A stretch of DNA of 32,193 nucleotides, taken from the NCBI GenBank assembly GCA_012729555.1, contig JAAYCX010000088.1, positions 1 through 32,193 of the forward strand, read 5' to 3'. Position 1 is the first letter of the stretch. Every line of letters begins with the position of its first letter. The notes under the pieces were generated by a model. It was given only the letters and a program-made list of their open reading frames with translations, was not told where the DNA came from and did not search any database. Shown piece by piece: positions 207 to 9,183 of the stretch. The stretch is from Acidobacteriota bacterium (lineage in GTDB: Bacteria > Acidobacteriota > UBA6911). A program made the position numbers and the translations under genes.

Positions 207-329
207 GATGCCCCCCGGCGGCCTGTTCCTTACTCCATTATCCCCCGCCGCGGCGAGGGTGTCACGGCCAAAAAGACCGGCCCGCGAGGCCGGAAAAACA
301 CCCCTTCCCGCCCCGGCGCAAATTATGGA

Positions 330-358
330 TTGGATTTTCCCGCCGGATCGCTTACTAT
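330..358 (+). promoter_or_regulatory. Promoter of tRNA-Arg
   Basis: A sigma-70-type promoter is visible just before the tRNA: -35 TTGGAT at 330-335, a 17-base spacer, and -10 TACTAT at 353-358. Transcription would start near 365, a few bases ahead of the mature tRNA 5' end at 369, which fits a short leader removed by RNase P. Confidence 0.7.
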
Positions 359-368
359 TGCGGCGTAT

Positions 369-445
369 GCGCCTGTAGCTCAGCTGGATAGAGCGTCGGC
401 CTCCGGAGCCGAAGGTCACAGGTTCGAACCCTGTCAGGCGTACCA
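369..445 (+). tRNA. tRNA-Arg (anticodon CCG)
   Basis: The sequence folds as a complete tRNA. The acceptor arm GCGCCTG pairs with CAGGCGT (first pair G-U). The D arm contains AGCTCAGCTGGATAGAGC. The anticodon stem is TCGGC/GCCGA around loop CTCCGGA, giving anticodon CCG, which reads the Arg codon CGG. The T arm is ACAGG-TTCGAAC-CCTGT. The discriminator base is A at 442 and the CCA end is encoded (443-445). A sigma-70 promoter ends ten bases upstream. tRNA genes are common integration points, and the 1 kb downstream is gene-poor; I saw no repeated 3' end of the tRNA elsewhere in the window. Confidence 0.97.
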
Positions 446-1428
446 CTTCCTAACGCCTTGCCGCTGCAACAACATACCCCAATCAATCAAGGCCATGGGG
501 CATAATGGCGCCGTATACCTCATCCTGCGACGTCATCGGGGACTGAACTCCAGCAGGGATCTGGTAGTCGGCAAGGCGCGGGGGTCCCTCGCGATCCCCG
601 ATGGATTGCAGAAGCGAAGAGTGTTCACAATCCGACGGCCGGGTTTCTGCGTACCCGGCAGGATCGCCGACATCGGCGCTGTCCGGACAGTCATGGGCTG
701 GCGAGGAAATTGGGACGACTGAACCTCGGAAGACCCGCCTCCCCTTTTCCGAAATCCTCCTCCGGCCCACCCCCTGCTGCCACAGGCAAGAAAAAGAAAT
801 TTGAACCGGACAGCCGGGCTTCATTGGCAGAAATCCCGACAACCGTACTCATCAAGCTAAGAGATTTTTAAATATCAAGCGAAAAGTAACTCTTTTTATT
901 GACACGACCAAAATGTTTTCATACCATAAGCAGTAACTAGCGCCCCGAAACCATAGCAGAGCGTGTGATAGATTCCACAACGTTCTTCCTCATGTAGAAG
1001 CCCAATAGCAAGGTAAGCAGCGAGAAGCATGCGCTTGACAGGACATGGGGCCGAAGTTCAGGCGCATCAATTCTGCCGTGACGGATTGAGGCGGACCATA
1101 GCGCCGAAAGCTTCGATGTCTCGTATAGGAACAATGAAGGCGCGGCAGCTGCGCTACCAGGAGCGGCATAAACACGGCGTGAACGCGGCACGCGCAACTA
1201 CCGCCGCCGGGAGTTCTACTCCCGTGGAGACTCAGTCGTTGAAAAGCCATATGCAGTCCGTTTCACAACGGTTGCCTGGACAGGATGGGGTTATTCCGGG
1301 TATCCTTGGCCAGCGGCGACCCGTCGAAACCCCATGCGAGGACTCTTACGCACTGTGGTGTGAGAGGGATAGACGGCGTACCGGCTACCTGTGTCCATTG
1401 CTGCACGTTTCCGAGAGGGGAGGTAGGA
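446..1428. other. Gene-poor stretch downstream of the tRNA
   Basis: Almost 1 kb without a gene I can support. Short open frames exist on both strands, but none has a credible ribosome-binding site together with codon bias or a recognisable protein. Two items stand out. One is a promoter-like element at 899-927 (listed separately). The other is a hairpin at 1343-1366, a 9-base-pair stem (with G-U pairs) around a 6-base loop, about 60 bases before the start of the small Cys-rich protein. The part near 850-930 is visibly AT-rich compared with the flanks. This could be a long regulated leader, a decayed island, or simply spacer. Confidence 0.5.
899..927 (+). promoter_or_regulatory. Candidate sigma-70 promoter in AT-rich patch
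   Basis: TTGACA at 899-904, a 17-base spacer and TACCAT at 922-927 form a good -35 and a fair -10 on the plus strand. The patch is AT-rich in a GC-rich chromosome. The next gene downstream on this strand is the Cys-rich exported peptide at 1429, so transcription from here would give a leader of about 500 bases, or a separate untranslated RNA. Confidence 0.4.
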
Positions 1429-1722
1429 ATGATGCGTAAAAATAAGCTTTTTCCGGTTGCCCCATTGATTCTTGCGATATTCCTGATTTTCCCGGAAAAA
1501 ACACCTTCCCAATATTTCTATAACCACATGAGATTTCAAGATTGGGGAGAGATGTACTGTGCAGGTTGTCAGGATTGGGGTTATACGCTTTACGATGATT
1601 GTCAGCCATATAACTGCCATTGGTGTTCCCCGGTCGGAATGGAATACAGATACTGCTATGCCAATAACGGCTGTTTGAACCTGCAAGGAGTTCAAACCAC
1701 CACCGGAGGTGGACCTTTTTGA
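1429..1722 (+). CDS. Small exported Cys-rich protein, unknown function
   Basis: I do not recognise this 97-residue protein. It begins MMRKNKLF followed by a hydrophobic run VAPLILAIFLIF, a clear export signal with probable cleavage before about residue 28. The mature part is about 70 residues with seven cysteines, including CAGC and CHWC pairs, and many Tyr, Trp and Asn, so it is likely disulfide-bonded outside the cytoplasm. It ends in a Gly/Thr-rich tail. Two ATG codons are adjacent (1429 and 1432); a strong purine-rich ribosome-binding site AGGGGAGG sits just upstream. Base composition is clearly more AT-rich than the neighbours, suggesting recent acquisition. It lies about 130 bases ahead of an exported propeller-like protein on the same strand. 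Small Cys-containing exported peptides paired with six-bladed propeller proteins are known in Bacteroidetes (NVEALA type); similarity to that arrangement is inference only. Confidence 0.7.
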   Translation: MMRKNKLFPVAPLILAIFLIFPEKTPSQYFYNHMRFQDWGEMYCAGCQDWGYTLYDDCQPYNCHWCSPVGMEYRYCYANNGCLNLQGVQTTTGGGPF

Positions 1723-1732
1723 GTATGAGCCA

Positions 1733-1753
1733 AAGGACACAGGCTGCGTCCTT
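1733..1753 (+). terminator. Possible hairpin after the Cys-rich gene
   Basis: AAGGAC at 1733-1738 pairs with GTCCTT at 1748-1753 around a 9-base loop, 10 bases after the stop codon. There is no U tract, so termination would be weak; it may only protect a 3' end. Confidence 0.3.
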
Positions 1754-1855
1754 CAGACTCGTTTAAGTTCAATCAAGTCACGGGTCGGCTTGAGGTGTCC
1801 GCGTGTTTGTGGCTTGGGATAGTGTAAGTGAAATTTTATCACCGGAGGGAATGCG

Positions 1856-2854
1856 ATGGATAGGGTGCTGCGCCTTAAAAGGAAATTCATCGTTGCCTGC
1901 CTGGCGGCGAGTGGTTTTCTCGCGGCAGGCAGTACCATTTCGCAGGCCGCGCCTGGTATGGATATGCCAGGAGGCATTCAGAAGGCCGCATTTTCCAATG
2001 ATGGCCTTCTTTATATCCTGGCCAAGGGTGAAGCCTCGATCAGGATCTACTCGGCGGAGGGACGCCTTCTGCGGAGGTTGCCGATGGATCCAGGCAACCG
2101 CCTGAATCTGCAGGGGGCCGGACCCCGGGATTTTTCGGTGGATGCGAAAGGTGACGTGTATTGTCTCACCTCCTGCCGGGAGCTTCCCCATCAGCAGTCG
2201 TGTATCGTTCGGATCGACAAAACGGGAGGGGCATCGACCGTAGTACCGCTGGGCAAGCCGCTTCATGCACTGCAAATGAGCAGGGACCGGGACGGAAACT
2301 TTTTTGTATTGGGATTTGAAGCGGACGTCAACAGTTCGATGGCCCGGAAACAGGATCTCCCCTCTTCTGTATACCTTGTGCATAAGTTCTCTCCCAAAGG
2401 CGAACATGTGCAATCGCTGATGCCCGTCATGGGCACGGCCGCCGATGGGCTGCTGCTGAACGCCATGGGACGTGCCAGGAGTTTCGTAGTGTTGCCCGAT
2501 GGGGAAGTCTGGTTTTTTGAGCTGCGGGTGGATGGGCGGACGCCTCCATGGCAGAACGCCCGGGCCGTGTACCATGTCGACAGGAAGGGATCTGCCGAGC
2601 GCATCGAGCCGGCTTCCTCCTCCGACCAGTTCGTGATGGGCATCCATGAGTATGCTGGGGACGTCGCACTGGAATGGGCCGACAGGAGGGCAGGGACGGC
2701 CAAGATCCTGACGAAGGTCGATGGCACCAGGATTGGAACGGTAGAGGGAGGAAGCATCCAGGCGATCGGGACGGATAGCGCGGTTTGCACGCGGATGGGC
2801 GGGAGTGGGGCCTTTCAGCTCACCCTGCATCCCATCGCTCCCCCGCGAGATTGA
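1856..2854 (+). CDS. Exported beta-propeller-like protein, unknown function
   Basis: A 332-residue protein with a signal peptide: basic start MDRVLRLKRK, hydrophobic FIVACLAASGFLAAG, cleavage likely after the SQAA stretch near residue 32. The mature part has repeated short blocks of the kind seen in NHL or six-bladed propeller proteins, in which a hydrophobic strand follows DG, GD or GN turns: FSNDGLLYILAKG (about 46-58), FSVDAKGDVYCL, SRDRDGNFFVLGF, VVLPDGEVWFFEL. No catalytic motif is visible. The start at 1856 is supported by GGAGGG eight bases upstream. It follows the small Cys-rich exported protein on the same strand, and the two may work together at the cell surface. Its codon use is nearer to the chromosome average than that of the peptide gene. 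Propeller fold is inferred from the repeat spacing; function is unknown. Confidence 0.7.
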   Translation: MDRVLRLKRKFIVACLAASGFLAAGSTISQAAPGMDMPGGIQKAAFSNDGLLYILAKGEASIRIYSAEGRLLRRLPMDPGNRLNLQGAGPRDFSVDAKGDVYCLTSCRELPHQQSCIVRIDKTGGASTVVPLGKPLHALQMSRDRDGNFFVLGFEADVNSSMARKQDLPSSVYLVHKFSPKGEHVQSLMPVMGTAADGLLLNAMGRARSFVVLPDGEVWFFELRVDGRTPPWQNARAVYHVDRKGSAERIEPASSSDQFVMGIHEYAGDVALEWADRRAGTAKILTKVDGTRIGTVEGGSIQAIGTDSAVCTRMGGSGAFQLTLHPIAPPRD

Positions 2855-2993
2855 AAAGGGCACACCAGGCAGAAACCCGCTCCGGCATGTTCCGACGCAT
2901 TCCCCCCGGCGCCGCCTGCTTCACGGCTGCACCGAAAGCGAGGCTGCTGAACCCGGACCACGCGGCCTCGGCACGCCCTGATATTCCCGTCCG

Positions 2994-3587
2994 CTAACGC
3001 CTGGAGGCCGCGGCCAGGGCCCGGGCGTGGGCGCGGATGTCCTCCGGCCACGCTTCGGTCAGCGCGTCGAAGCGCGCCCGGTCGGAGGCGTAGAGCGCCC
3101 GCAGGGCCTCTTCGTACCCCGGCTCGTCCCCCGCCATGTCGGTCATGAAGCGGTAGCACGCTTCCTGCGCGAGCCGCCGCCGCTCTCCGCCCGCCGTCGA
3201 GCGGCGCGCCTCCTCGACCACTTTGCGCAGCGTCACCGAGGCCCCGCCCGGCTGACGGTTGAGCCATTCCCAGTGCCGCGGCAGCAGGGTCACCTCCCGG
3301 GCGACCACCCCGAGTCTCGGCCGCCCGGGCGAAGGAGAACGGGGGGGTGCCTCGGCCGGTCCGGCCGGGATCCGGGCCGCGATCTCCTCGGGCGTTCCCC
3401 GGAGGTCGAGTTCGACCGGTTCGCTGGTTTCGGCGTCGAGGACGAGCACCCGGCGGTCGGCGTCTTCGTCGAGCGCGCGCTTCGCCCCCAGCGCCGCTTC
3501 GAGCAGGGTTCCCGCGCCGACGCAGTTGGTGCCTGCAAAAGCGATAAACCGGTGTCCCGCCTCAGCCGCATCCGTCCCCTCGACCAT
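2994..3587 (-). CDS. DUF2239 family protein
   Basis: A 197-residue soluble protein that I recognise as the DUF2239 family by its conserved blocks: RRVLVLDAETSEPVELDLRG (about 45-64), RPRLGVVAREVTLLPRHWEWL (about 88-108), QPGGASVTLRKVVEEARR (about 111-128), YRFMTDMAGDEPGYEEALRALYA and a C-terminal AWPEDIRAHARALAAAS. The function of the family is not established. The start ATG (3585-3587) has AGGAGA in the right place. It is expressed alone from a near-consensus promoter that carries two identical palindromes (3622-3663), so it is very likely under the control of a specific repressor; no regulator gene adjoins it in this window. A second, decayed copy of its C-terminal coding region lies at 8222-8310. 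Confidence 0.85.
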   Translation of the reverse strand: MVEGTDAAEAGHRFIAFAGTNCVGAGTLLEAALGAKRALDEDADRRVLVLDAETSEPVELDLRGTPEEIAARIPAGPAEAPPRSPSPGRPRLGVVAREVTLLPRHWEWLNRQPGGASVTLRKVVEEARRSTAGGERRRLAQEACYRFMTDMAGDEPGYEEALRALYASDRARFDALTEAWPEDIRAHARALAAASRR

Positions 3588-3621
3588 CGGTTTCTCCTCT
3601 CATGGTGGAAAAAGATGGGCT

Positions 3622-3663
3622 ATTGTACCCGGGTAATATATCTTTGTCAATATTACCCGGGTA
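3622..3663 (-). promoter_or_regulatory. Promoter with twin palindromic operator of DUF2239 gene
   Basis: Read on the minus strand there is a textbook sigma-70 promoter: -35 TTGACA (plus-strand 3645-3650), 17-base spacer, -10 TACAAT (3622-3627). Two exact copies of the perfect 10-base palindrome TACCCGGGTA lie over it, at 3626-3635 (spacer and edge of the -10) and 3654-3663 (just upstream of the -35). Their centres are 28 bases apart. Transcription would start near 3615, giving a leader of about 28 bases to the ATG at 3587. A repressor bound at these sites would block RNA polymerase; the identity of the repressor is unknown. Confidence 0.8.
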
Positions 3664-3748
3664 TAACTATTTCGGCAGAGTGCAGGAGAATGGGCGTTTG
3701 GCTCCTGAGGCGCCGCCTCCCGATGAAGGAGAGAACCTCGGCGCTCAT
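3653..3748 (-). pseudogene. Probable vapC toxin remnant
   Basis: A 31-residue frame starts at an ATG overlapping the stop of the vapB remnant (ATGA overlap, as in intact vapBC pairs). Its first residues, SAEVLSFIGRRRL, resemble a segment near the middle to C-terminal half of VapC PIN-domain toxins, just before the GRGIGYVDAHLL-type block. The N-terminal catalytic part (hydrophobic-Asp-Thr start) is missing and the frame then runs into unrelated sequence and stops inside the DUF2239 promoter. So the toxin gene has lost most of its body by deletion and the fragment cannot be an active nuclease. The resemblance is short; I am fairly but not fully sure. Confidence 0.5.
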
Positions 3749-3949
3749 CCCATTCTTCTTCTCGGTATCTCCTCCAGCCGCTTCCGGGTCCCCCCCATCC
3801 TGGCGAGCCGGCGCGCGCTTTCCCGGGCGATGAGGGCCTCGAGGCCGAGGCGGACCAGGGCGGTCTTTTCCTTGATCCCGGTCAATCTCGACGCCCTTTC
3901 CACCAGCCCGTCGTCAATATTCAGGGTGGTGCGCCTATTCCGACCCCAT
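3745..3949 (-). pseudogene. vapB: VapB-type antitoxin gene, start broken by frameshift
   Basis: The frame encodes RRTTLNIDDGLVERASRLTG, then KEKTALVRLGLEALIARESA and a basic C-terminus ending PRRRMG. This is the usual sequence of the short VapB (DUF2191) antitoxin, which binds operator DNA as a ribbon-helix-helix-like dimer and neutralises a VapC nuclease. No start codon lies in this frame: a stop occurs upstream and only non-start codons follow it. Removing a single T from the sequence after ATGGGG (minus strand; ATG at 3947-3949) would join an ATG to the frame and give 67 residues. The gene is therefore probably dead through a one-base insertion, and its toxin partner is also truncated. Confidence 0.75.
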
Positions 3950-4027
3950 ATGTTTCATGTGCATGATTATGCGTCTTTCATGCATACCAGGCAAACTCAC
4001 CCCGGTCGGCGCCTTCCCCACTGTCGG

Positions 4028-4065
4028 CCCGGGAGACCCACCGCGCGTTTTCTGCCATAGTGGGC
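4028..4065 (+). repeat. Promoter-like repeat, copy A
   Basis: This 38-base segment matches 8334-8371 at 36 of 38 positions. It contains a TTTTCTGCCATAGTGG core, where copy B has CTATAGT, an extended -10 type element. Here nothing is transcribed rightwards from it: the next genes run on the minus strand. It looks like a duplicated promoter left behind by rearrangement. The remaining bases up to 4118 contain no other feature I can support. Confidence 0.65.
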
Positions 4066-4118
4066 AGAGAGGAGGCCGCTCTGCCGCTGCGTCACCGGGA
4101 TTCCGGCGTTCCCGCCGG

Positions 4119-7100
4119 TCACCCCTCGGGAAGGGCCTCGCGCACCTTCCTTGCCAGGTCTTCTCTGCTGAAAGGTTTCTGGAGAAAGTGTATCCCCTGG
4201 TCCAGGATGCCGTGAGGGGCGATCACGTCGGCCGTGTAGCCGGACATGTAGAGAATCCCCATGCCCGGGTGCCGGGCTTTCAGGCGTTCGGCCAATTCCC
4301 GGCCGTTCATCCCCGGCATGATCACGTCGACGATCAGCAGGTCTATACCCCCAGCCTGTTCCGCCGCCGTCTCGAGCGCGGCCCCGGGATGGGCAGCCGC
4401 CAGCACCCTGTATCCCAGACCGGCGAGGGTTTTCCGGGCGAGCTTCAACAGCGCCGACTCATCCTCCACCATCAGGATGGTCTCCCCGCGGCCGGAGGGC
4501 AACACCGCCGGAGCCGGATCTTCGGATTCGCACTGGTTTCCGGCGTGTCGAGGGAGCCAGATCCTGAAAATGGACCCCCGCCCGGGCTCGCTCTCCACAT
4601 CGATGGAGCCGCCGTTCTGCCGAACGATGCCGTAGACCGTGGCCAGGCCCAGGCCGGTCCCCCGACCCACATCCTTGGTGGTGAAAAACGGTTCGAACAG
4701 ATTCTCGAGGGTCTCCCGGCTCATGCCGCAGCCGTTGTCGCTCACCGTCAGGAGCACATGGTCCCCGGTCTCCGGACCGGACCGGCCCCGGCGGTCGGGC
4801 TGCCCCGCGGCCATGTTGCCCGTCCGGATGGTGATCCTTCCCACCCCGTCGATGGCATCCCGGGCGTTGACCAGGAGATTGGCCAGAACCTGGTGGATCT
4901 GGGCCGGATCCATGTTCATCGGCCAGAGCCCCGCGCCCGGTTCCCACGACAGGTCGATGTCCTCGCCGATGAGGCGCCGAAGCATCTTGAGCATGCCCGC
5001 AACGGTCTCGTTCAGGTCGATGATCCGGGGAGAGATGGTCTGGCGCCGGGCGAAGGCCAGAAGCTGCCGGGTGATCTCGGCGGAACGGCGGCCCGCATCG
5101 AAGATCTCCTTCAGGGCTTCACGAACCGGATCCCCGGGTCCGACCTGGTCCAGCGCCAGTTCCGACTGGCCCATAATCACGTTGAGCATGTTGTTGAAGT
5201 CGTGGGCGACGCCTCCGGCCAGCCGGCCGACGGACTCCATCTTCTGGGCCTGGAGCAGCTGGCCCTGAAGCCTTTCCTTTTCGGCCTCCGCCTGCTTGCG
5301 CTCGACGATTTCGCCGATCAGCCGGGCCGAAACCGCCAGCCTCTTCTTGGCCAGTTCGATGATGAAGGGGGGCCGGGTTTCGTAGGCCTCCGCCGCCAGC
5401 CTGAGGGCGTCCCGATCCACCCCGTACCGATCCGCCAGTTCCCCGAGCCGGACCGGGTCCCGCGGCGGGTCGCCGAAACCGAAGTTGATGGCGCCCACGA
5501 TCTCGCCCCCGGCCCGTATCGGCACCCCGTACATGCGGATTCCGCCGTTGCAGGCGATTTCGACGGGCTTTCCGGTCTCCATGGCCTTTTTGGCGTTCTG
5601 GGTCCAGCAGGACTCGTGACACAGCCACCTGCCGCAGGCAAGCGCCTCCCGGTTGTCGTCGGTACCGCAGAGAGTGCGCGAAGCCCCGTCCATGAAGCGG
5701 CACCAGCCCGAGGAGAAAAGGCCCAGGGCGTAATCGCCGTTTTTTTCGTAGATAGCCGCGGATGTTTCCAGAAGATCCAGAAAATCGGAAGCGATATCGC
5801 GCAACAGGTCCTCGTCCACCGAACGCCGGATGAGGCCGTGATCGTTCAGCGCGGCGAGGCTTCCGTAGGACGGCTGATGAACGCCGCCGTCCCCGTTGGC
5901 CGGCCGGGTCGTGAGCAGCCATTCCAGGCGGCTCAGGGCGTCCCGCGATCGGATGTTCTCGACCGACTTCCAGACCGCGTCCATCAGGAGGGTCAGTTCG
6001 AGCTGATCGGTTTCGGTGTAGTCCGATTCCTTGTCGGCAACGCCCACCACGGCCACCGCCCTATCGCCGCATATCACGGGGATCGCCAGCAAGCGCGTCA
6101 ACGGGAGAGGACCCCCGGAACACCCCATCTCAGGCTGATACCCGGACGGGATTCCGTTGACCGCGACCGGTCGCCCACTCCGTACCGCTTCACCCCAGGC
6201 GCCGCCGTGGTCCAGCGCGCAGACGATCGGGGGCTCCGACAGGGGACAGCCCGGCGCCGGGTCCCCGGAGCGGGTGTTGAAGGTGAACTCCCGCCGTTCG
6301 TCGTCGTAGAAATAGACGTACCCGCACCGGCTCCGGCTGAGGGAGACGGCCTGGTCCAGCGCGTGATCCAGAAAATCCTGGACGTCCCGGGGCCGATATT
6401 GCAGGATTTCGACCATCGCCTTCAGCCAGGCCATGTTTCGCCGGTTTTGTTCCTCGGATACCTTCTCGCGCGTCGTGTCCTGGAAGATGGCGGCGAACTG
6501 TCCGGCATTGGGAGAAAAGGCCGTAACCTTGAAATGCCTGCCCAGTTCTCCGGCATATGCATCGAAGGTGACGGGTTCTCCGCTGCGGGCCACCCGGCCG
6601 AACGCTTCGATCCAGTACGGCTCGGTCCGCGGCAGGACCTCGAGCACCGTCCGGCCGACGACCCGTTCCGCCTTGAGCCCGGTCAGGCTTTCGAACGCCG
6701 GGTTGACGGCAAGAAACCGGTAATCCACCGTGCGGCCGTCTGCATCCTTGACGATTTCATGGAGGGCGAACCCGTCGAGCATCTTATGGAACAGGGTGCG
6801 GTAATCCTGCTCCATTCTGCGATGCGCGGTCACGTCGCGCGCGATGACCAGGACCGATTCGACCCTGCCCGCTTCATGCAGCTCCGGTATCAGGCGGCAG
6901 TTGAGGATAACCTCCCCCTGCCCGCCCGGGAGCCGGATCTCGTCCTCCAGGGGCAGGCCGCTCTGAATCACCTGCGGGAGGGATCGGTCCCAGAACCGGC
7001 ACACGGACTCGGGAAGCCCCAGCTCGCGGTGGGTTTTCCCGAGGCAGCGGTCAACGGAAAGACCCGTGATCTCGGCAATGTTTTCCGACGCAAACAAATA

Positions 7101-7943
7101 GCGGCCGGCGCCGTCCAGCCGGAACACTACGTCGGGAAGCCCCTCGACCAAGGCACGGTATTCGTTCCCCTGCTTCCGCAGGGCCTCTTCAAACCGTTTC
7201 CCTGCCGAAATATCGACGATCTGCGAGATGAAATAGGCGGGGCCGTCCTCTTCGTCCCGCACCAGGGAAACATCGAGGAGGGCCCAGATGGCATGCCCCT
7301 GCTTGTGGATGTACCGTTTTTCGATCTGGTAGGTAAAAATCTCCCCCGACAGCATCCGGGCGACCAGGGTCGTGTCCGGCTCGAGGTCCTCCGGGTGGGT
7401 GATATCCTGAAAGGTCCGCTCAAGCAGTTCCTCCTCCGAATACCCGAGCAGGTCGCACAGGGAACGGTTGACCTTGAGCCATTCGCCCCGGGGCGAAACC
7501 AGGGCCATCCCGATGGGGGCGTGCGTGAAGGCCCTGAAAAAGCGTTCCTCGCTCTCCCGCAGAGCCTCCACCATGCGGCGCTGTTCGGTCAGGTCGCGGA
7601 TAATGATGCTGCTCCGGGTGCGTCCATCAGGTCCATCAAAGAGCGCCGAAGAGACCAGCGCGGGGAAAACGGTGCCGTCGGCTTTTTTGCACCGCAATTC
7701 CCCGACATACCGACCGGTGCGTTGGCGCTGCGCGAGCGCCGGACCCAGCCTCGGATCCCCGGCATCCATGATAGCGCTCCGGCCGCCCTGGACGAGTTCC
7801 TCTTTCGTCATCTGGAACAGCTCGCAGGCCGCCCGGTTGGCGAAGAGGATCGGACCTTCGGGCCGGGTCAGGAAGATCGCGTCCAGGCAGTGGTCCACCA
7901 CGGCCTCATAGGGATTGTCCAGCCTGCGTTTCCTCTCCCGCAT
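4119..7943 (-). CDS. Hybrid histidine kinase with PAS, GAF and PocR sensors
   Basis: A 1274-residue, apparently soluble sensor kinase. In order: PAS domains at about 13-125, 130-250, 260-375 and 380-495; a GAF domain at about 510-660 ([22 protein letters not shown]); a PocR ligand-binding domain at about 690-865, with cysteines in [14 protein letters not shown] and the [13 protein letters not shown] block; a short coiled coil; HisKA with GGVAHDFNN (phospho-His about 914); an HATPase_c domain with [15 protein letters not shown] and GTGLGL; and a receiver domain with phospho-Asp about 1206 in [13 protein letters not shown] and Lys in KPFS. PocR domains are known to sense small organic molecules such as diols. 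No transmembrane segment is seen. A TTG start 15 bases further upstream is possible, but ATG at 7941-7943 has AGGGG at good spacing. No response regulator adjoins it, so its target is unknown. Confidence 0.93.
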
Positions 7944-8103
7944 CGCACCGCCCCTCAAGCAAGAGGATTACTGGCTCCAGCCCCAAAAAGCATGGACCCG
8001 CCATAGGCCGCCGTCCGAAAGAGATGCGCGCCGGCACACCGGGTGCCTCCGGACCATGGCGCCCGTCTGCTGCCCTTATCGGCGCCTGGGGCGCATCCTT
8101 GGC

Positions 8104-8122
8104 GGTTTTCGTTTCGAAAACC
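8104..8122. repeat. Perfect short hairpin
   Basis: GGTTTTCG at 8104-8111 pairs exactly with CGAAAACC at 8115-8122 around TTT. It lies in the non-coding gap upstream of the large kinase gene (minus strand) and before the methyltransferase (plus strand). It could be an operator or part of a transcript end; there is no U tract. I see nothing else supportable in 7944-8221. Confidence 0.4.
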
Positions 8123-8221
8123 ATGATGGGGCCCGAACGGACCCGCGGAGGATTCCGATGTCACCCGGCCCTGTTCACCAGGGCGCCGGGAGGAACTGAT
8201 GGAAGCGGGGGCGGGCACCAA

Positions 8222-8310
8222 GGCATGGAGGCCGTGGCCAGGTCCCGGGCGTGCGCGCGGATGCCCTGAGGCCGCGCGTCGGTCAGCGCGGCGAGCAGTG
8301 CCCGGTTCAT
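8222..8310 (-). pseudogene. Remnant of a second DUF2239 C-terminus
   Basis: Read on the minus strand this stretch encodes NRALLAALTDARPQGIRAHA followed by RDLATAS, which lines up with the last 26 or so residues of the intact DUF2239 protein at 2994-3587 (RARFDALTEAWPEDIRAHARALAAAS). The nucleotide match to about 3000-3075 is also plain. No upstream part of the gene is present. It is followed 24 bases later by the second copy of the promoter-like repeat, so both pieces belong to one ancient duplication or rearrangement. Confidence 0.65.
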
Positions 8311-8333
8311 CGCCCCCTTCCCATCCGCCGGGA

Positions 8334-8371
8334 CCCGGGAGACCCGCCGCGCGTTTTCTGCTATAGTGGGC
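8334..8371 (+). promoter_or_regulatory. Promoter-like repeat, copy B, before methyltransferase
   Basis: The second copy of the 38-base repeat (36 of 38 identical to 4028-4065). It includes an extended -10 element, TG followed by one base and TATAGT at 8362-8367. Transcription would begin near 8374, immediately before the GAGGAG ribosome-binding site and the ATG at 8389, giving a very short leader. No good -35 hexamer is seen, as expected for an extended -10 promoter. Confidence 0.6.
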
Positions 8372-8388
8372 GCAGAGGAGATCGCCCC

Positions 8389-9168
8389 ATGGAAGGCAAA
8401 CGCGACCCTTACGCGGGCATGGCCGACGTCTATGACGGGATGGCGCGCGACCGCCAGGTCCGCGAGGCCTACCGCTACTGGAGGGAGCTGCTGCTCCAAT
8501 GCGCCTCGGAACGGAAGCTCGAGATCCGGACGCTGGTCGACCTGATGTGCGGGACCGGAAACACCACGATCCCCTGGACGCGGCGCGCGGGGTGGCGCGT
8601 CATCGGCGTCGACCGCTCGGCCGCCCTCCTCCGGGTGGCCCGCGCGAAATCGGACCGGGTGCGCTGGTACCGGCAGGATGTCCGCCGGCTCCGGCTCCGG
8701 GAGCGGGCGGACGCGGTCACGTGCCATTTCGACGCGCTCAACCACATCCTCGAGCCGGGGGAGATGCAGGAGGCGTTCCGCCGCGTCGCCCGGGTTCTGC
8801 GCCCCGGCGGGCTGTTCCTCTTCGACCTCAGCACCGCCGCATGGTTCCGCTGGCTCGACGGGCGGGACAAGGTTTCCCGGGTCGGCCGGAATTTCCTGAT
8901 GGCATCGAACTTCTACGACCCGAAAAGCCGCATCGTCCTGTTTACGCAGCACTGGTTCGTCCCCAGGGGGCGCCTGTACGAGCGGCGCACCATCGCCGTC
9001 CGGGAGCGGGCCTACCCGGTCGCGGAGATCCGCGCGATGGCGCGTGCGGCCGGCTTCCGGGTGCTCCGGGCGGAGCCGCAGTGGACGATCGGGGGGAAGG
9101 CCGTCCGCCGCGTGTTCGTGCTCGAAAGGAGGGCGCAGGACCCGTTCCCTCCCCGCGTTCATTGCTGA
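8389..9168 (+). CDS. Class I SAM-dependent methyltransferase
   Basis: A 259-residue soluble enzyme of the seven-strand SAM methyltransferase fold. Motif I is LVDLMCGTGNTTIPW (about 49-63), which binds S-adenosylmethionine. The strand-2 acidic residue is the Asp of VIGVDRS (about 71-77). YRQDVRRL follows, then motif IV region AVTCHFDALNHI (about 108-119) and RVLRPGGLFLFDLST (about 138-152). The C-terminal third (FYDPKSRIVLFTQHWF and the YPVAEIRAMARAAGFRVL block) is like that of UbiE/YcgJ-type enzymes acting on small molecules. The substrate cannot be told from the sequence. ATG at 8389 has GAGGAG ten bases upstream. The gene stands alone, ended by a strong hairpin at 9184-9226. Confidence 0.88.
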   Translation: MEGKRDPYAGMADVYDGMARDRQVREAYRYWRELLLQCASERKLEIRTLVDLMCGTGNTTIPWTRRAGWRVIGVDRSAALLRVARAKSDRVRWYRQDVRRLRLRERADAVTCHFDALNHILEPGEMQEAFRRVARVLRPGGLFLFDLSTAAWFRWLDGRDKVSRVGRNFLMASNFYDPKSRIVLFTQHWFVPRGRLYERRTIAVRERAYPVAEIRAMARAAGFRVLRAEPQWTIGGKAVRRVFVLERRAQDPFPPRVHC

Positions 9169-9183
9169 ACCCGAGCCGGAGTC

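Follow-up and report, generated by a model that had tools for sequence, protein, structure and literature searches.

A seven-cysteine exported peptide gene beside an exported β-propeller gene in an Acidobacteriota contig, and recurrence of the peptide–propeller gene arrangement in the phylum

When a gene for a small, exported, cysteine-rich peptide is followed closely by a gene for an exported propeller-like protein, do the two form a functional pair, or have two orphan genes simply come to lie side by side? The question is raised by a stretch of Acidobacteriota DNA of 32,193 nucleotides (“the window”), which is contig 88 of a 3.83 Mb draft genome. A preliminary description, made from the letters alone, had likened the two genes to the NVEALA-type peptides and six-bladed propeller proteins encoded together in Bacteroidetes, and had suggested that they might be an independent version of that arrangement. 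The adjacent, same-strand genes, their export signals, their strong ribosome-binding sites and the seven cysteines of the peptide were all found as it had given them. The features of the locus are the following:

369–445, + strand: tRNA-Arg(CCG), left-hand boundary of the pair's segment (ARAGORN, Rfam; synteny with congener G007)
446–9180, no strand: segment that congener G007 lacks at the corresponding position (blastn; comparison with the L042 sequence)
899–927, + strand: sigma-70-like promoter match, TTGACA-17-TACCAT, 10/12 (resemblance to the consensus only; some 500 nt before the peptide gene)
1419–1423, + strand: ribosome-binding site GGAGG of the peptide gene, 5 nt before its start (sequence)
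1429–1722, + strand: gene for a putatively exported 97-aa peptide, ATG at 1429, stop ending at 1722 (sequence, open reading frame)
1844–1849, + strand: ribosome-binding site GGAGGG of the propeller gene (sequence)
1856–2854, + strand: gene for a putatively exported 332-aa β-propeller protein, ATG at 1856, stop ending at 2854 (model, Foldseek, HHalign)

The peptide begins with a basic N-terminus and a hydrophobic core (best 12-residue mean hydropathy 3.06), a signal predicted from sequence, and all seven cysteines (residues 44, 47, 58, 63, 66, 76, and 82) lie past it, with a spacing of 2-10-4-2-9-5 that includes two CxxC pairs; the mature peptide also holds three tryptophans. The GC content of the gene is 44% and its codon positions are flat (45/41/45%), beside neighboring genes with a position-3 GC of 82–86%, so that the case for coding is made by length, signal, ribosome-binding site, and cysteines, not by codon usage; the missing codon-position bias may also point to a recent arrival or a young gene. 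In 400 dinucleotide-preserving shuffles of positions 448–1855, frames of at least 97 aa were common (77%), but none of the 400 yielded one that also carried a signal, a ribosome-binding site, and seven or more cysteines. Promoter-like sites numbered 3, with 1.5 expected. A Pfam search of the peptide gave no match up to E = 1, and its single-sequence structure model (pLDDT 48) was too poor for use.

The propeller gene follows after a gap of 133 nt and has a codon composition unlike that of the peptide gene. Its product has a signal core hydropathy of 2.38, with probable cleavage after TISQA. The single-sequence model of the 332-aa protein is all-β with approximately 24 strands, at a low pLDDT of 53, and a Foldseek search of this model against the PDB returned 340 matches at E ≤ 0.001, almost all of them β-propellers among the 50 listed. 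Structural alignment to solved propellers gave Z values up to 12.5, and designed WD40-type propellers match one blade of the protein. By its four-stranded repeated blades and its matches to solved structures, the modeled protein is a β-propeller; approximately 24 strands would fit six blades, a number that is probable at best in a model of such low confidence. HHalign gave a probability of 95% to DUF5128-type propellers of the phylum and of 0.4% for a shuffled copy. Structure prediction and a profile search had both been proposed as checks, and the propeller-like character of the second protein is borne out by each of them; named families, on the other hand, were found for neither protein, since neither rose above the Pfam cut-off or had a match in NCBIfam, PHROGs, or PADLOC. 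No match to PF17170 (DUF5128) was obtained for the window propeller or for any other protein of its own genome. We regard it as a distant relative of the DUF5128/NHL-type propellers, which it resembles in fold and in distant sequence similarity, and from whose PF17170 members the missing profile match sets it apart.

Orthologues of the peptide or the propeller were found neither in the genus, family, and class (38 genomes) nor in a 396-genome sample of the phylum nor in the plasmids and viral contigs searched, so the window pair is unique in all searches (n = 1). Eleven loci returned by a single scan of the whole collection with the propeller, 10 of them from Acidobacteria, Acidobacteriota, or Terriglobia, share the blade motif HKFSPKGE with the window propeller; they belong to a generic NHL-type family, the same as that of a protein of the same-phylum genome G390, have no exported cysteine peptide upstream, and were rejected as orthologues. 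The DUF5128 propellers of close relatives (L018–L021) likewise have no exported cysteine-rich peptide adjacent.

The NVEALA family (PF14055) was absent from all 396 genomes of the phylum, while the positive control was found in Bacteroides ihuae. The window peptide has no NVEALA motif and no profile match, and an identity of the window pair with an NVEALA pair was therefore rejected; what the two have in common is that the gene for a small exported peptide adjoins that for an exported propeller. Our literature search returned nothing naming NVEALA and nothing on peptide–propeller pairs in this phylum.

Because NVEALA was absent and DUF5128 propellers were present (in 175 of the 396 genomes), we searched for other cysteine peptides upstream of such propellers. 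The scan called for an open reading frame of 40–150 codons with a signal-like core, a ribosome-binding site, and at least four cysteines after residue 22, on the same strand and ending at most 400 nt upstream of the propeller gene; sampling took the propellers with the strongest PF17170 matches, not a random set. Such a peptide preceded 16 of 127 DUF5128 propeller genes, and 14 were judged genuine by eye, 8 of these from the 100 loci fetched later, after the criteria had been fixed on the first 30 loci (several of which were positive). In the controls, the mirror position past the 3′ end on the opposite strand gave 0/122 and the downstream position 1/117. The two positives set aside were an arginine-rich frame that looks non-coding (L099) and a protein resembling a high-potential iron–sulfur protein (L165). 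An additional locus, L068, has a peptide with ten cysteines and no recognized ribosome-binding site. The 15 peptide–propeller loci are spread over 12 genomes of six families, with seven from family f48 alone, and are therefore not fully independent. The peptide–propeller gene arrangement thus recurs in the phylum. The analogy to the Bacteroidetes pairs holds for this arrangement (14/127 against the controls above) and fails for NVEALA itself, and it is plausible that the window pair is an independent version.

The recurrent peptides fall into several families, none of which is in Pfam or NCBIfam. In the largest, four cysteines are invariant and follow a twin CX6C pattern, which suggests, as judged from sequence, a helical hairpin with two disulfides; this family is recognizable across genomes and taxonomic families, at identities to the first sequence of up to 48%. 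Other peptides have ten cysteines (L055, L068, and L167) or a C-terminal QC.AKYCN (L048 and L052). At one locus (L188, 488–1056), two different small exported four-cysteine peptides stand in tandem ahead of one propeller gene, and at another (L113, contig 19 of G268) a six-cysteine exported peptide is encoded downstream of the propeller gene.

Peptide-bearing propellers also differ from peptide-less ones in what follows them. Of 14 peptide-bearing loci, 8 have a gene for a thioredoxin-fold protein immediately after the propeller gene, against 1 of 103 peptide-less loci (Fisher p = 4e-8, computed ignoring relatedness); its products have CxxC sites and best match AhpC-TSA and ResA/StoA thiol–disulfide proteins. 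Genes for an ABC permease and ATPase often adjoin the recurrent pairs; some loci encode the two as a single fused protein, in divergent orientation to the peptide gene. Among the 4 kb loci, only those with a peptide-bearing propeller gave matches to the ABC permease profiles. Both these profiles and that of the redoxin were themselves made from peptide-bearing loci, which biases both comparisons toward those loci. Since the propellers preceded by a peptide are those followed by a thiol–disulfide protein, a testable hypothesis would be that the propeller handles a disulfide-bonded peptide.

An unnamed conserved operon could be delimited at six loci, with genes for a twin CX6C exported peptide, a six-bladed propeller, and a thioredoxin-fold protein, and an ABC permease/ATPase nearby:

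L178, 7392–9368: unnamed operon
L179, 7260–9277: unnamed operon
L180, 7740–11202: unnamed operon
L182, 3729–7157: unnamed operon
L183, 3559–5551: unnamed operon
L189, 5267–8905: unnamed operon

How far does the window pair fit this module? It has every feature that defined the scan (signal, ribosome-binding site, at least four cysteines, and the 133 nt gap on one strand), and like the operons of L178–L183 and L189 it places an exported cysteine peptide shortly upstream of an exported propeller. Unlike them, it has no redoxin gene directly downstream, a feature of 8/14 members, and no adjoining ABC genes, and its peptide has seven cysteines where theirs mostly have the four of the twin CX6C layout. 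Compared with the recurrent peptides, the window peptide scored best against that of L068 (p = 0.005–0.014 before correction for 8 tests), and no similarity to a recurrent family was significant after that correction. The window propeller is nearer to the peptide-less propeller profile (HHalign 95%) than to the peptide-bearing one (approximately 15%). With neither redoxin nor ABC genes, a dissimilar peptide, and a propeller closer to the peptide-less profile, the window pair resembles at most the two-gene core of the phylum module.

The reading that we tentatively favor, with less than even confidence, makes the window pair a lone, divergent member of the peptide–propeller module in which the propeller binds a disulfide-bonded peptide. 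Both proteins carry predicted export signals; the peptide would be secreted to the periplasm and fold there via disulfides, one of its seven cysteines being left free or paired with a partner, and the exported β-propeller would be its binding partner, as a receptor, a carrier, or a large subunit. The two genes would be co-transcribed, and the pair would share the function of the recurrent pairs, whose operons often include, besides peptide and propeller, an ABC transporter and a thioredoxin-fold protein anchored in the membrane. Six-bladed propellers are bound by cysteine-rich ligands elsewhere, for example in Dkk1–LRP6 of animals, where a cysteine-rich secreted ligand meets a six-bladed propeller; the peptides are not homologous and the likeness is one of analogy only. 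Methylamine dehydrogenase, described below, offers a second precedent for a disulfide-rich small protein joined to a propeller. Counting against a module is the uniqueness of the pair, so that no conservation supports it as a unit, and the low confidence of both structure models and the differing codon compositions of the two genes weigh on the same side. Binding of the peptide by the propeller is the likeliest account, if one we hold with reserve, and chance neighborhood is its serious rival.

A wider claim is more doubtful still, and we consider it rather unlikely as a whole: that the phylum has an undescribed exported peptide–propeller system, with the window pair as a reduced member of recent origin, its peptide and propeller binding each other. 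If true, several unrelated cysteine-peptide families would each have their own β-propeller, often with a dedicated thiol–disulfide protein and an ABC transporter, and the window pair would be the extreme case, a two-gene core able to stand alone. The literature searched holds no description of a role for DUF5128-type propellers, though they are common in the sampled phylum, and the twin CX6C peptide, propeller, redoxin, and ABC transporter would provide defined gene sets for expression and assay.

The strongest alternative, itself on balance unlikely, is that two unrelated orphan genes met in a variable segment linked to a tRNA and that their adjacency is functionally meaningless. Their location, 3′ of tRNA-Arg(CCG), is one that varies within the genus. 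Congener G007 keeps the tRNA and the sequence just upstream (92% identity over window positions 278–446), and its homologue of the window from 9181 onward starts approximately 200 nt past the tRNA, so that both flanks are kept and the low-GC segment between them is missing; the other congeners examined each carry different sequence after this tRNA. Sequence comparison found no second, att-like copy of the tRNA end. Chance adjacency would also account for the missing orthologue pair in everything searched, for the differing codon compositions, and for the missing redoxin or ABC partner. Against it stand the shared strand, the short gap, and the export signals and strong ribosome-binding sites of both genes, as well as the strong enrichment of the same arrangement at other propeller genes of the phylum.

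It is improbable that the genes form a bacteriocin-like pair, with a secreted disulfide-bonded peptide acting on competitors and a propeller serving for self-protection or as a periplasmic carrier. Small exported cysteine-rich peptides that are highly diverse between loci, the ABC transporters adjoining many recurrent pairs, and the genus-variable location of the window pair would all suit such a role; however, the twin CX6C family is conserved across genomes and families rather than hypervariable, and we saw no immunity-like membrane protein or peptidase beside the window pair and no double-glycine leader. Less probable again is that the propeller gene alone is real and the peptide frame is not a gene: its GC content, flat codon pattern, lack of any relative found, and commonplace length would fit, but the empty result of the shuffles for the combined features and the similar peptides at the same position before other propellers argue otherwise.

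Methylamine dehydrogenase, which requires MauE and the thioredoxin-like MauD, pairs a propeller heavy chain with a disulfide-rich, small exported light chain of 12 cysteines. That the window peptide is the cofactor-bearing small subunit and the propeller the large subunit of such a redox enzyme (methylamine or quinohemoprotein amine dehydrogenase) is the least credible reading: the mau layout of propeller, cysteine-rich small subunit, and thioredoxin-like protein, the quinohemoprotein amine dehydrogenase subunit 1jju_B among the aligned folds (Z = 10.9), and the three tryptophans are in its favor, but all propellers match the model about equally, no sequence similarity was found, the peptide has 7 cysteines and not 12, and the surroundings of the pair showed no MauE-like protein, MauG-like cytochrome, or radical SAM maturase. 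MauE and MauD are summarized in PMC7794033.

The remainder of the segment 446–9180 contains DUF2239, which is the next gene after the propeller and lies on the opposite strand, a VapB-like fragment, and a large sensor kinase. The VapB-like antitoxin frame (3745–3903, 52 aa) matches its profile from position 13 onward, and its immediate neighborhood yielded no toxin partner. At 3623–3666, a short distance upstream of the DUF2239 gene, lies an inverted repeat with 17-nt arms (TTGTACCCGGGTAATAT / ATATTACCCGGGTATAA, 94%) that resembles a repressor operator.
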